A stretch of 64,000 bases of DNA from Pseudomaricurvus alkylphenolicus (GTDB taxonomy: Bacteria > Pseudomonadota > Gammaproteobacteria > Pseudomonadales > Cellvibrionaceae), in the NCBI RefSeq assembly GCF_011683955.1, contig NZ_JAAQPI010000017.1, positions 1-64,000 of the forward strand, read 5' to 3'. This document shows positions 52,657 through 56,914 of the stretch, in pieces. Each line of letters opens with the position of its first letter. Position 1 is the stretch's first letter. The translations under genes were made by a program, and so were the position numbers. Under the pieces are notes generated by a model. The model was not told where the DNA came from, searched no databases, and saw only the letters and a list, made by a program, of their open reading frames with translations.

Positions 52657-53577
52657 ATGTCTGACCTGAAGATTATTAATTTTATGGGGCAGCGCAAGAT
52701 TGCGGCGGCCCTGTCCGTCCTGCTGCTGTTGGGTTCGATCGTTTCGTTGACGATGAACGGTTTGCAGTTTGGTTTGGATTTTACCGGTGGTACTCAGATT
52801 GAGGTGGGATACGAGCAGCCGGCAAACCTGGAGCAGGTGCGCTCGCAGTTGCAAGCGGCGGGATTTGAGTCTGCGGTGGTGGTGCACTTCGGTGCCGAAA
52901 CGGATGTGTTGATTCGTTTGCAGCGGGGTTTCGAAGCCGGGCTGGGTGATGAGATTCTGGCGGCTTTGCAGCGCGACAGCGGGCACACCGTTGATCTGCG
53001 TCGTATTGAGTTTGTCGGTCCGCAGGTGGGCGAGGAGTTGCGTGACGATGGCGGCATCGGCATGTTGTTCGCGCTGGTGGTGGTGATGGTGTATGTGGCC
53101 ATGCGCTTTCAGTTTAAGTTTTCTGTGGGTGCTGTGGCGGCTCTGATTCACGATGTGTTGCTGGTACTGGGCGTGTTTTCGGTGCTGAAGCTGGATTTTG
53201 ACCTGACGGTGCTGGCGGCGGTATTGGCGGTGATCGGTTATTCGTTGAACGATACCATTGTGGTGTCGGACCGTATTCGTGAGAATTTCCGTAAGTTGCG
53301 TACTGAGACGCCGCTTGAGGTGATTAATTTTTCTCTGTCGCAGACATTGGGCCGTACGTTGATTACGTCTTTGACGACGATTTTGGTGTTGTTGGCGTTG
53401 TTCTTTTTCGGCGGTGAGATGATTCATGGTTTTGCCACGGCGTTGTTGATTGGTGTTCTGGTGGGTACCTATTCTTCGATTTATGTGGCCAGTAATGTGT
53501 TGCTGACTATGAATATCAGTAAGGAAGATTTGATGTTGCCCGTTAAGGAAGGGGCTGAGGTTGATGATGTACCCTGA
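52657..53577 (+). CDS. secF: Protein translocase subunit SecF
   Basis: The 306-residue partner of SecD. One N-terminal helix is followed by the periplasmic domain with LDFTGGTQIEVGYE and by five helices. These include DDGGIGMLFALVVVMVYVAM (start of helix 2) and the conserved SLNDTIVVSDRIRENF. It begins 24 bases after secD. Codon use shifts toward T/G in the second half, but the frame is intact. Confidence 0.97.
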   Translation: MSDLKIINFMGQRKIAAALSVLLLLGSIVSLTMNGLQFGLDFTGGTQIEVGYEQPANLEQVRSQLQAAGFESAVVVHFGAETDVLIRLQRGFEAGLGDEILAALQRDSGHTVDLRRIEFVGPQVGEELRDDGGIGMLFALVVVMVYVAMRFQFKFSVGAVAALIHDVLLVLGVFSVLKLDFDLTVLAAVLAVIGYSLNDTIVVSDRIRENFRKLRTETPLEVINFSLSQTLGRTLITSLTTILVLLALFFFGGEMIHGFATALLIGVLVGTYSSIYVASNVLLTMNISKEDLMLPVKEGAEVDDVP

Positions 53578-53962: not shown

Positions 53963-54168
53963 GTTGGAGGCTCTGCGCTCGACCATGGTGCGGGCGTCTT
54001 GTTTCGTCATTTTATTGATTTGTAGGCTGTTGATTAAGAAGGGTTTGATCGGCTGAAAGGATCAATTTATCAGATTCCGAATCGGTGCAAAATTTCCCCT
54101 TATTTTTGGCGGTTGAACCGGAATGGGGCGATTTGTTGAGAGAAGGCCTCTGATTCACGGTTTTTTTC

Positions 54169-54184
54169 TGGCACAGCACTTGCT
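54169..54184 (+). promoter_or_regulatory. Sigma-54 promoter of the small RNA
   Basis: TGGCACAGCACTTGCT fits the sigma-54 consensus TGGCAC-N5-TTGCW at every conserved base, and the -24 GG and -12 GC are correctly spaced. A T run lies just upstream. Transcription should begin near 54195, with no ORF before the terminator at 54290. Confidence 0.85.
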
Positions 54185-54194
54185 CTGTATGTCT

Positions 54195-54290
54195 GTAACT
54201 AGCGAATTTCTCCGGCTGGCCATTGTGTATGGCGGGGTGGAGTTACCGGGTTCTCTCTGAGCTTGTGCCCTGCTCGCAGGGCAATTTTTT
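54195..54290 (+). ncRNA. Predicted sigma-54-dependent small RNA, about 96 nt
   Basis: From the predicted start, the RNA folds into a 5' hairpin (GTAAC/GTTAC, CTCC/GGAG, GCCAT/ATGGC around TGTGT). A single-stranded linker containing TCTCTCTGAGCTTGT follows. It ends in an intrinsic terminator (GCCCTG CTCG CAGGGC, then AATTTTTT). The linker and terminator recur 190 bases downstream with a compensatory change in the stem, so the structure is selected. No open frame with a ribosome site is inside. Function is unknown. The pyrimidine-rich linker is a plausible mRNA-pairing seed. Confidence 0.7.
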
Positions 54291-54427
54291 ATGTACAGGA
54301 TGTACGGTATATCGCGGGAGGCAGGACGCCGGAAGCGATCATGTACAGGATGTACGGTATATCGCGGGAGGCAGGACGCCGGGAGCGATCATGTACAGGA
54401 TGTACGGTATATCGCGGGAGGCAGGAT
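54291..54427 (+). repeat. Three tandem 50-bp repeats with AGGA hairpins
   Basis: Units start at 54291, 54341 and 54391. The first two are 50 bp and differ at one base; the third is complete for 37 bases and then diverges. Each unit can form GTAC-AGGAT-GTAC and GGC-AGGAC-GCC, with AGGA in the loop. The repeats begin directly after the small RNA's T run and end just before the duplicated tail. There are no spacers, so it is not a CRISPR. If transcribed by read-through, they would give six AGGA loops in a row. Confidence 0.85.
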
Positions 54428-54432
54428 CCAGG

Positions 54433-54612
54433 TTAAATAGAATCTCTCTGAGCTTGTGCCCCGTTCGCGGGGCCTTTTTTCGGCAGCAGTTGACGCATGG
54501 GGCAGCGTCGCTGGCGTTTTGGGGTCAGTTTTTCGCGTTGTTCCGGCCCCTGGTTTTTTGCCAGCATAATAAACAGGTCTTGCAGAGTCTTGATCAGGAC
54601 GCTTTGGGTCAT
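54433..54612 (-). CDS. Possible 59-residue basic protein
   Basis: The ATG at 54612 is preceded on the minus strand by GGAAGGAG at good spacing, the main reason to report it. The peptide starts MTQSVLIKTLQDLFIMLAKN and becomes strongly basic (KRQRRCPMRQLLPKKG). Its last third runs antisense through the second terminator copy, which weakens the case. No family is recognised. Confidence 0.4.
   Translation of the reverse strand: MTQSVLIKTLQDLFIMLAKNQGPEQREKLTPKRQRRCPMRQLLPKKGPANGAQAQRDSI
54443..54480 (+). terminator. Second copy of the small-RNA tail and terminator
   Basis: TCTCTCTGAGCTTGTGCCC is identical to 54252-54270. The hairpin is GCCCCG TTCG CGGGGC followed by CTTTTTT. Compared with the first copy, one T-A pair has become C-G on both sides and the loop is a UUCG tetraloop, making it a stronger terminator. 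Confidence 0.9.
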
Positions 54613-54943: not shown

Positions 54944-56914
54944 TTGCAGGACTTTAAAGAGTTCCAGAGTGTTGAGTTTCAGTGTTATCAGCGCTTGTTG
55001 AAGGCTGAGGGGTTTGGCTTTTGGGAGTGGGTGCCGGAAGAGGATGCAGTGCATCTGAGAGGGGGGTTCTGGCGAACTTTGGGGTACGAGTTGGGGGACT
55101 CGGAGTCTGTGGTTCGGGTGAGTCGACTGGGAGAAGTGATTCATTCGGAGGATTGGCATGGCTTTTTGAAAACCACCGCCCGTGTTCTTGGGCGCGGTCA
55201 TCGAATGCAGCAGCGGGTGAGGGTTCGTCATTCGCAAGGTGGTTATTTCTGGCTCTGTCTGGATGGGGAGATTACCCGGCGGCGTGATTTGCAGATCAGT
55301 TGTGTTTCGGGCATCGCGTTTGATGTTTCGAGTCAGCAGGAGTTGGAGCAGCGGCTGCAGAAGAGTGAGGAGCGTTTGATGCGTATTCTGGACTCTTCCA
55401 ATGACGGTATTTGGGAGTGGACGGAGGCGCTGGGAGGCTTTCATTTTTCGGACCGCTGTTGGCAGCAATTGGGTTACGACGGTCACGATGATGCCATGTT
55501 GATGGGCCGTAATCGGTTGGAGGTCTGGAGAGAGCTGATACACCCGGAGGATAGAGCGCGTTTTCATCAGCACTTGGTTGATCATTTGAAGGACGACAGC
55601 ACCTTTGATCTTGAGTATCGGGTGGCAACCAAGTCGGGTGGTTGGTGCTGGATTCGGGCTCGCGGCCAGTGTCATCGGGATGGGCAGGGTCGGGCGGTGA
55701 GTATGTCCGGCACCAATATGGATATCACTGAGCTGAAGCATACAGAGGAACGTCTGGTATTCGCGCGCGAGGAGGCGGTGGCGGCGAGTCAGGCCAAATC
55801 CCGGTTCTTGTCCAGCATGAGTCATGAACTGCGTACACCGTTAAACGCGATTTTGGGCTATTGCCAGGTGTTTGCGATGGACTCGGCGTTGTCTGAGCAA
55901 CAGCAGCAAAGCGCTCGGGAGATTCGCAAGGCGGGCAATCATTTGTTGCAGTTGATCAATGATGTGATGGATTTGTCCCGTATTGAAGCCGGGCAGATGT
56001 CGCTGTCGCAGGAACCTGTGTTGGTCAGTCGTCTGTTGGAGGAGTGTCTCACCTGGATCAAGCCGTTGGCGGATGTTCGCCGTATTCGCATCTTGCGCGA
56101 CTATGGTGTGCTGGGGGAGATCTATGTGCTGGCTGATGCAACACGTTTGAAACAGGTGTTGCTGAATCTGATCAGTAATGCGGTGAAGTACAATCGGGAG
56201 AGCGGGTTGGTTACCGCTCGCTTGCAGGCGTCGACCGGTGCATTACGCGTCGATATTGAAGACACTGGTCGCGGTATTGAGGAGGCTCGCCAGGCGGAAA
56301 TCTTTGAGCCCTTTAATCGTCTGGGCGCCGAGTCCAGTGCGATAGAGGGCACGGGTGTGGGGTTGTCGATCACTCGCCAGCTGGTCAATAGCATGGGGGG
56401 CGAGATGGGTTTTCGCAGCACGCCGGGCAAAGGCAGTTGCTTCTGGGTTACCTTTCCCAGTGCGGCTGATCAAGAGCCAGCCGTTGAGCAGAACCTGTCA
56501 GACGCTGAAATCGAGCAGCAGCCCGGTCTTGGGGATGCACCTCTGAGGGTGCTTTATATTGAGGATAATCCTTCTAACATCCGAGTGCTTAAGCAGATGT
56601 TGGAGGCCTGGCCTCAGGTGCGGCTGGAGGTTGCCGATGAACCTTTTTACGGATTGTATCTTGCCCGCACCAGCCGACCGGATGTGGTGCTGATGGATAT
56701 TAATCTGCCTCGAATGGATGGTTTTGAGACCTTGCTGTTTATGCAGCAGGATCCCTGTTTGCAGGGAATTCCGGTGGTGGCGTTATCGGCCAACGCGTTG
56801 CCACAGGATATCGAGAGAGGCAAGGCGGCGGGATTTTTTGAGTATCTGACCAAGCCGGTGGAGTTGCCACAGTTATTGGCGGTGTTGGCGCGCTTGAAGG
56901 TTGGAGGCCAATAA
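54944..56914 (+). CDS. Soluble hybrid sensor histidine kinase with two PAS domains
   Basis: A 656-residue cytoplasmic kinase with no membrane helix. Two PAS/PAC sensor domains (about 20-130 and 145-270) precede HisKA with FLSSMSHELRTPLNAILGY (phospho-acceptor His near 292). The HATPase has LKQVLLNLISNAVKYN, DTGRGIEE and EGTGVGLSITRQL. A C-terminal receiver follows (VLYIEDNPSN, phospho-Asp in VVLMDINLPRMDG, switch Lys in LTKPVELP). The start is a TTG with only a weak GAGG upstream, so translation may be low or coupled to a short upstream frame. There is no adjacent response regulator, so it probably relays to a distant partner. Confidence 0.93.
   Translation: MQDFKEFQSVEFQCYQRLLKAEGFGFWEWVPEEDAVHLRGGFWRTLGYELGDSESVVRVSRLGEVIHSEDWHGFLKTTARVLGRGHRMQQRVRVRHSQGGYFWLCLDGEITRRRDLQISCVSGIAFDVSSQQELEQRLQKSEERLMRILDSSNDGIWEWTEALGGFHFSDRCWQQLGYDGHDDAMLMGRNRLEVWRELIHPEDRARFHQHLVDHLKDDSTFDLEYRVATKSGGWCWIRARGQCHRDGQGRAVSMSGTNMDITELKHTEERLVFAREEAVAASQAKSRFLSSMSHELRTPLNAILGYCQVFAMDSALSEQQQQSAREIRKAGNHLLQLINDVMDLSRIEAGQMSLSQEPVLVSRLLEECLTWIKPLADVRRIRILRDYGVLGEIYVLADATRLKQVLLNLISNAVKYNRESGLVTARLQASTGALRVDIEDTGRGIEEARQAEIFEPFNRLGAESSAIEGTGVGLSITRQLVNSMGGEMGFRSTPGKGSCFWVTFPSAADQEPAVEQNLSDAEIEQQPGLGDAPLRVLYIEDNPSNIRVLKQMLEAWPQVRLEVADEPFYGLYLARTSRPDVVLMDINLPRMDGFETLLFMQQDPCLQGIPVVALSANALPQDIERGKAAGFFEYLTKPVELPQLLAVLARLKVGGQ

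Follow-up and report, generated by a model that had tools for sequence, protein, structure and literature searches.

Background

GlmY/GlmZ and Pxr are sigma-54-dependent small RNAs (sRNAs), and Rfam includes families for Qrr, CrcZ and GlmY/Z. In a different class of regulatory RNA, the repeats of CsrB carry a loop motif like CAGGAUG or CAGGACG. Among the described systems closest to our locus, NrsZ is encoded in the ntrC-PA5126 spacer and is at least 226 nt long, and CrcZ measures 407 nt, according to an excerpt of one report (PMC9308961). Another sRNA is derived from a 3'-UTR and released from the glutamine synthetase mRNA, as stated in part of its source (PMC9731577), and E. coli makes the sRNAs RrA, RrB and RrF by read-through between dual rRNA terminators, which an excerpt of the source describes as interacting with Hfq and CsrA (PMC8144298).

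The locus studied here lies in a 64-kb stretch of DNA, which was analysed whole (the window) and belongs to an 8.88-Mb genome, designated G000. It shares with NrsZ, CrcZ, Qrr, GlmY/GlmZ and Pxr an intergenic -24/-12 promoter, a short predicted non-coding RNA, hairpins and an intrinsic terminator. It differs in that it stands at another locus and matches no sRNA family of Rfam: at gathering score the window yielded a tRNA alone, in agreement with the original prediction that the RNA does not resemble Qrr, GlmY/Z or CrcZ. A permissive search gave sub-threshold hits to CsrB and sau-6072 in the gap that holds the locus. No report of the sRNA, or of a 50-nt element found beside it, was met in the open-access literature searched by words. 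On balance, the sequence comparisons lead us to favour, with some reserve, the view that 54169-54290 is a sigma-54-dependent small-RNA gene, probably of the Hfq type and confined as far as searched to a single genus. This preference builds on the observed promoter, predicted fold, conservation, duplication of the terminator module and presence of an rpoN gene.

A sigma-54 promoter downstream of secF

A gap of 1367 nt separates secF (52657-53577) from a PAS/hybrid histidine kinase gene (54944-56914; Pfam PAS_3, HisKA, HATPase_c and Response_reg). Within it, on the forward strand, the sigma-54 (-24/-12) promoter TGGCACAGCACTTGCT at 54169-54184 has the exact consensus TGGCAC-N5-TTGCT and is the sole exact match to TGGCACNNNNNTTGCW in the window, so the consensus promoter predicted at 54169 is indeed there. 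Because the nucleotide right after TGGCAC is A, G being favoured at that place, the site scores 11/12 on the longer 12-position consensus that we applied in the scans downstream of secF and upstream of thioesterase genes. Transcription is predicted to start at 54195, 10 bases after the promoter, which places a -24/-12 promoter at the correct distance for a sigma-54-dependent sRNA. A gene carrying the sigma-54 DNA-binding domain (rpoN) was found in all five genomes of the genus that are readable at this locus.

A chance resemblance, with no transcription unit at all, would draw on the fact that sigma-54-like sites do arise at random: a mean of 0.15 exact matches to TGGCACNNNNNTTGCW is expected per window, with at least one in 15 of 100 shuffles. 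However, the same promoter stands in the same place in 5/5 genus members, and we give this explanation hardly any credence. When the 1367-nt gap was shuffled 4000 times and read on both strands, a promoter alone arose six times and a promoter followed by a terminator at sRNA distance never did, bearing out the original expectation that this pairing is rare by chance.

An enhancer-binding protein acting some 85-100 bases upstream would activate the promoter. A candidate half-site for such an activator, GGTGC, lies on the forward strand at 54084-54088, 85 bases upstream of the promoter, and the same pentamer occurs on that strand at -85, -83, -97, -86 and -100 in G000, G001, G002, G004 and G005, respectively. 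On the opposite strand GGTGC is absent from all five, and a second GGTGC is present elsewhere in three of them. The pentamer was first spotted by eye and counted afterwards; having been noticed after the fact, it is only a lead. A dyad count for palindromic activator sites gave nothing common to the five genomes.

The predicted 96-nt RNA and its duplicated module

Placed by its distance from the promoter, the predicted small RNA extends over 54195-54290 on the forward strand. Its minimum free energy (MFE) is -38.9 kcal/mol (z -2.86), and an equally stable fold arose in 2 of 200 shuffles. The MFE and centroid structures both contain a 5' hairpin at 54210-54242, followed by a pyrimidine-rich stretch (54247-54265) and by terminator T1 (54266-54290), with a stem at 54266-54283 and six T at 54285-54290. 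The original prediction had named these three parts, with the pyrimidine-rich stretch as a linker, and all are recovered; in addition, the linker is predicted to form a small hairpin with the loop UCUCU. This hairpin contains the conserved pyrimidine motif TCTCTCTGAGCTTG (54252-54265, forward strand), which we defined from an alignment of nine copies in five genomes and a pattern search. RNA polymerase would start near 54195, and most transcripts would stop at T1, giving the 96-nt RNA.

The predicted absence of an open reading frame (ORF) between promoter and terminator holds as well, the longest closed frame within the 96 nt encoding 11 aa (GTG start). Frames from TTG 54223 and ATG 54229 meet no stop before the end of the terminator, continue into the repeats that follow and have no visible ribosome-binding site. 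A small coding protein was also sought across the genus, and no short ORF common to its members was seen.

Beyond the original prediction, the last 38 nt of the predicted RNA (TCTCTCTGAGCTTG plus the terminator) recur on the forward strand at 54443-54480, 87% identical to the first copy and with the stem of terminator T2 at 54458-54473; three 50-nt repeats lie between the copies. This second copy has a fold z of +0.16. Since motif and terminator are duplicated around the repeats, the locus can be described as promoter, hairpin, module 1, repeats and module 2.

Conservation within the genus

Our genus set consisted of six genomes, G000-G005, of which G000, G001, G002, G004 and G005 are readable at the locus; in G003, an 87%-complete assembly, the SecF query gave no match. 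The exact TGGCAC-N5-TTGCT follows secF, with CTCTCTGAGC and a terminator downstream, in all five readable genomes, and the motif pattern is accordingly present at the secF locus in five of the six. Among G000, G001 and G005, with 76-82% identity in SecF, little in the gap can be aligned apart from two islands, the promoter and the motif with its terminator. For G002 and G004 the mutual alignment extends across promoter, ORF and module array. Across nine module copies from the five genomes, 24 columns are invariant, and the terminator stem is paired in 9/9, one pair being changed on both sides.

Around these islands the layouts vary. In G005 the promoter is followed by a predicted RNA of ~93 nt with a hairpin, ACTCTCTGAGCTTG and a terminator, the hairpin having no sequence similarity to that of the window, and in G001 by ~230 nt with hairpins, the motif and a terminator, in which frames are only short or open-ended. 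There are two module copies at the locus in G000 and two in G005, and at least six each in G002 and G004, with six module matches in the array of G002 and nine in that of G004 over two contigs that both end inside the array; the period in the G002 and G004 arrays is 81-88 nt. The arrays (L014 1441-1978, L012 1-502 and L033 1425-1637) consist of units of a hairpin, CTCTCTGAGCTTG and a terminator, and contigs end in or near them. The units of the relatives often fold no better than ordinary sequence, which speaks against our reading: z across eight sRNA-like units, the window's included, ranges from -3.44 to +0.01. G002 has two more motif matches outside the secF locus, one of which (L056) was inspected and remained without explanation.

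A conserved promoter and terminator with variable flanks had been named beforehand as the test of the sRNA, and this is the pattern in 5/5 readable genomes. The genus relatives keep promoter and terminator while the surrounding DNA has changed, and the unit is therefore probably a real regulatory RNA. The original reading of a sigma-54-driven sRNA is supported in part, by the promoter and terminator; the sequence of what it described as the 5' hairpin differs among genus members, a thioesterase ORF occupies the unit in two of the five genomes, and the unit was found in one genus only among those searched.

The repeated terminators admit another reading, in which a strong terminator has been selected as a cassette that stops transcription from both the sigma-54 promoter and secF ahead of the next genes, the RNA itself being inert. 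The tandem module arrays of G002 and G004 fit this, as does a convergent gene downstream in G001 and G004, which we take to be suhB-like. Nevertheless, conservation is highest in a part that takes in the 10-14 nt preceding the stem, which termination does not need, and the array units carry upstream hairpins too. We consider such a cassette improbable, and the regulatory RNA remains our preferred reading of the conserved module.

Searches beyond the genus

By SecF similarity 80 loci were fetched, and 73 of them were scanned on the strand of secF, the most distant or second copies (L130-L136) being omitted; 3 of the 73 had less than 1300 nt. We counted the 73 as outside the genus because no SecF among them exceeds 75.4% identity to that of the window, against 80-86% in genus members, so this taxonomy is taken from SecF identity alone. 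None of these more distant loci has a sigma-54 site of at least 11/12 after secF. Sites of 10/12 occur in four (L085, L090, L107 and L111), and [CT]TCTCTGAGC is present in none of the 73. As a separate observation on this collection, the SecF matches of L105, L108, L112, L123-L125 and L128, Exilibacterium among them, span ~1150 nt rather than ~900, and in L108, L123 and L125 SecF has an extra ~80 residues in-frame after about residue 90-105.

The motif pattern matched 8 of 144 family genomes. Five of these belong to the genus set of six, and each of the remaining three has a single match; of these three, L041 was inspected and appears to be coding. With a model of the module (R2), weak matches are common, 150 of 390 genomes of the order having a match at E<=0.01. 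Strong matches (E<=1e-9) were confined to G000 and G004, the best outside being 5.5e-7; G001, G002 and G005 are missing from the R2 matches and apparently lie outside the 390-genome sample. All 18 outside R2 loci that were inspected are terminators without CTCTCTGAGC, one of them with a 10/12 sigma-54-like site. Apart from this, several genomes of another genus, g277 (loci L251, L253, L255, L258 and L262), share a conserved stretch resembling GTCACTCTCTAGTTT that precedes a terminator, and some of these stretches follow the apparent end of what is presumably a ppsA-type gene.

A thioesterase gene in the same unit

In G002 and G004 a 4HBT thioesterase ORF (~125 aa; Pfam 4HBT) lies between the promoter and the terminators and is followed by the tandem module array. 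The terminator module there follows a sigma-54-driven ORF, and an RNA could therefore be released from a 3' end, as in the case of the glutamine synthetase mRNA; the window differs in that no ORF lies between promoter and module. Relatives of this ORF were matched in 56 genomes, and of the 30 best loci, the two genus members included, 29 carry a sigma-54 promoter in the 300 nt upstream; outside the genus (L139-L166) 27 of 28 relatives do, at a distance of 83-186 nt from the start. A coding control of the same length had such a promoter in 0/30, and eight further, more distant thioesterase loci had none at 10/12 or better.

Since the promoter drives a thioesterase ORF in G002 and G004, the unit may originally have produced an mRNA. 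The unit after secF could be either an sRNA gene that gained a thioesterase in the G002/G004 line, or a thioesterase operon from which the ORF disappeared in the other genomes. Taken further, the second course would make the window's unit the leftover of a sigma-54 thioesterase operon, its 4HBT gene lost and its short RNA a functionless by-product, and this is the most serious rival to our reading, though we think it unlikely. The ORFs of G002 and G004 and the promoters of their relatives speak for it, as does the lack of any match to the protein at E<=1e-25 in G000 and G001. On the other hand, decay should blur promoter and motif alike, and three diverged genomes without the ORF retain the motif and an exact promoter, which would favour a function of the RNA. 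In G005, moreover, a thioesterase is encoded elsewhere without a sigma-54 promoter of at least 10/12, and the ORF-less sigma-54 unit after secF persists. Finally, the 144-genome family search did not find the CTCTCTGAGC-terminator pattern with thioesterases of other genera.

A dispersed palindromic element behind T1

Directly behind T1, at 54291-54440 on the forward strand, three 50-nt units of a palindromic element are arranged head to tail (matches to our model R1 at 54291, 54341 and 54391). The first two units each have two hairpin loops with GGA, CAGGAUG and CAGGACG, and the third is degenerate; several GGA motifs in hairpin loops, as in a CsrB-like sponge, are thus present. The two hairpins hold in ten units taken from four genomes, G000 included, with 99.1% of cells paired and 4 of 11 pairs changed on both sides. 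G000 has 21 units at 13 sites, and at 13/13 of these (loci L200-L220) the array begins directly behind the T-run of a terminator (4-7 T), judged by eye.

The element is not confined to the genus. R1 matched at E<=1e-4 in 54 of 274 genomes of the class, G000 included, up to 21 candidates being scored in each genome. By a simple count, 5 of 29 outside loci start behind a T-run, and in 11 of the 28 that were checked for frames the element lies within an open frame of at least 180 codons. At L245, L232 and L248, around position 1500, a related element stands in-frame in the genes for ClpB, MetH and valyl-tRNA synthetase of other class genomes as 17-20 extra residues; one of the four element-bearing frames tested had no family match. 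These insertions are comparable to those of the rickettsial palindromic elements. In the part of the source on REP and RPE palindromes (PMC3733652), those sequences are likewise dispersed palindromes that can stand in tandem and occur in-frame within genes, as the element does in other genomes; the present element differs from them as a ~50-nt two-hairpin unit with GGA loops that lies behind terminators in this genome and for which no GTAG or CGTC tag was established.

The GGA loops, the CsrB hit and a set of CsrA-family matches together make it possible to read the T1 read-through RNA as a Csr sponge: a sigma-54-driven transcript of ~286 nt would pass T1, end at T2 and titrate CsrA-family proteins through its GGA loops. 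CsrB (RF00018) is the best sub-threshold Rfam hit of the gap, with E 0.014 and 18.1 bits, but its cut-off is 71. G000 has four CsrA-family matches (C34:98614, C3:237905, C7:65565 and C7:113223) and no match to the CsrB family at E<=1, and the hairpins hold in related units, as described above. A precedent may be seen in the E. coli sRNAs between dual rRNA terminators: the window likewise has a GGA-loop stretch between two terminators, which would be reached by read-through if transcribed, whereas the promoter there, in the excerpt of the source (PMC8144298), is that of rRNA rather than a sigma-54 promoter, and the stretch in the window consists of a repeat dispersed over the genome. Against a sponge, the repeat is scattered over 13 sites and lies inside coding genes in other genomes, as expected of mobile DNA, and it is missing from the secF locus in the other four genus members (G001, G002, G004 and G005). 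Its dispersed, partly intragenic distribution fits mobile palindromes at least as well as a Csr sponge, and we regard the sponge as very unlikely.

More speculative still is a combined scheme, to which we attach very little weight. One promoter with partial termination would give two regulators, a 96-nt Hfq-type sRNA and a longer RNA that titrates CsrA; the element would belong to a mobile family found across the class, inserting directly behind intrinsic terminators and so making CsrA-binding RNA out of ordinary read-through, with a sister form inserting in-frame in genes. Why a GGA-loop palindrome follows terminators at 13/13 sites in G000 is a separate question that these data raise.

A putative Hfq-type module and its possible targets

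Returning to the 96-nt RNA as the preferred product, its conserved part is the 3' module of UCUCUCUGAGCUU, terminator hairpin and oligo-U, which is arranged like an Hfq-binding module and may bind Hfq. The Hfq module has been described as a hairpin preceded by a U-rich stretch with poly-U after it (PMC4509938, in part), and an excerpt on Hfq-binding sRNAs gives seven or more T (PMC5558911). The window's module shares the order of U/C-rich stretch, hairpin and oligo-U, but T1 and T2 have six T and the stretch before the stem is UC-rich, not U-rich. Through its UCUCU loop the RNA would pair with the ribosome-binding sites of target mRNAs, at purine-rich stretches resembling the Shine-Dalgarno sequence, and potentially repress them.

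We searched the five genomes for the complement of the motif, AAGCTCAGAGAG, as a 12-mer with at most one mismatch, the same pattern read backwards serving as control. Complement sites numbered 54 against 20 control sites in G000 (2 of the 54 being self sites), 12 against 9 in G001 (1 self), 29 against 11 in G002 (6 self), 39 against 12 in G004 (9 self) and 8 against 6 in G005 (2 self). Of the 122 sites outside the modules themselves, 120 were examined, two G002 sites being left out. Fourteen lie near a possible start codon, and none of the 14 is in related genes of two genomes. Related ORFs of different genomes formed seven pairs, of which two join G002 to G004, its close relative, and none has a site at both start codons. 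One pair of related genes in G000 and G002, which we take to be TonB-receptor-like and which are 34% identical, has the complement 72-74 nt before the first ATG (L313 and L394, positions 801-812 in the orientation of the site). We treat this shared upstream site as a lead and not as a target, and it may be due to chance in so large a family.

Conclusions

If the unit is real, it would be a lineage-specific addition to the short list of sigma-54-driven sRNAs. With one promoter serving a thioesterase gene in certain species but a unit with no ORF in the rest, and with a 3' module multiplied into tandem arrays, the genus would offer a natural series for how sRNA genes arise from, or become, the 3' ends of mRNAs.
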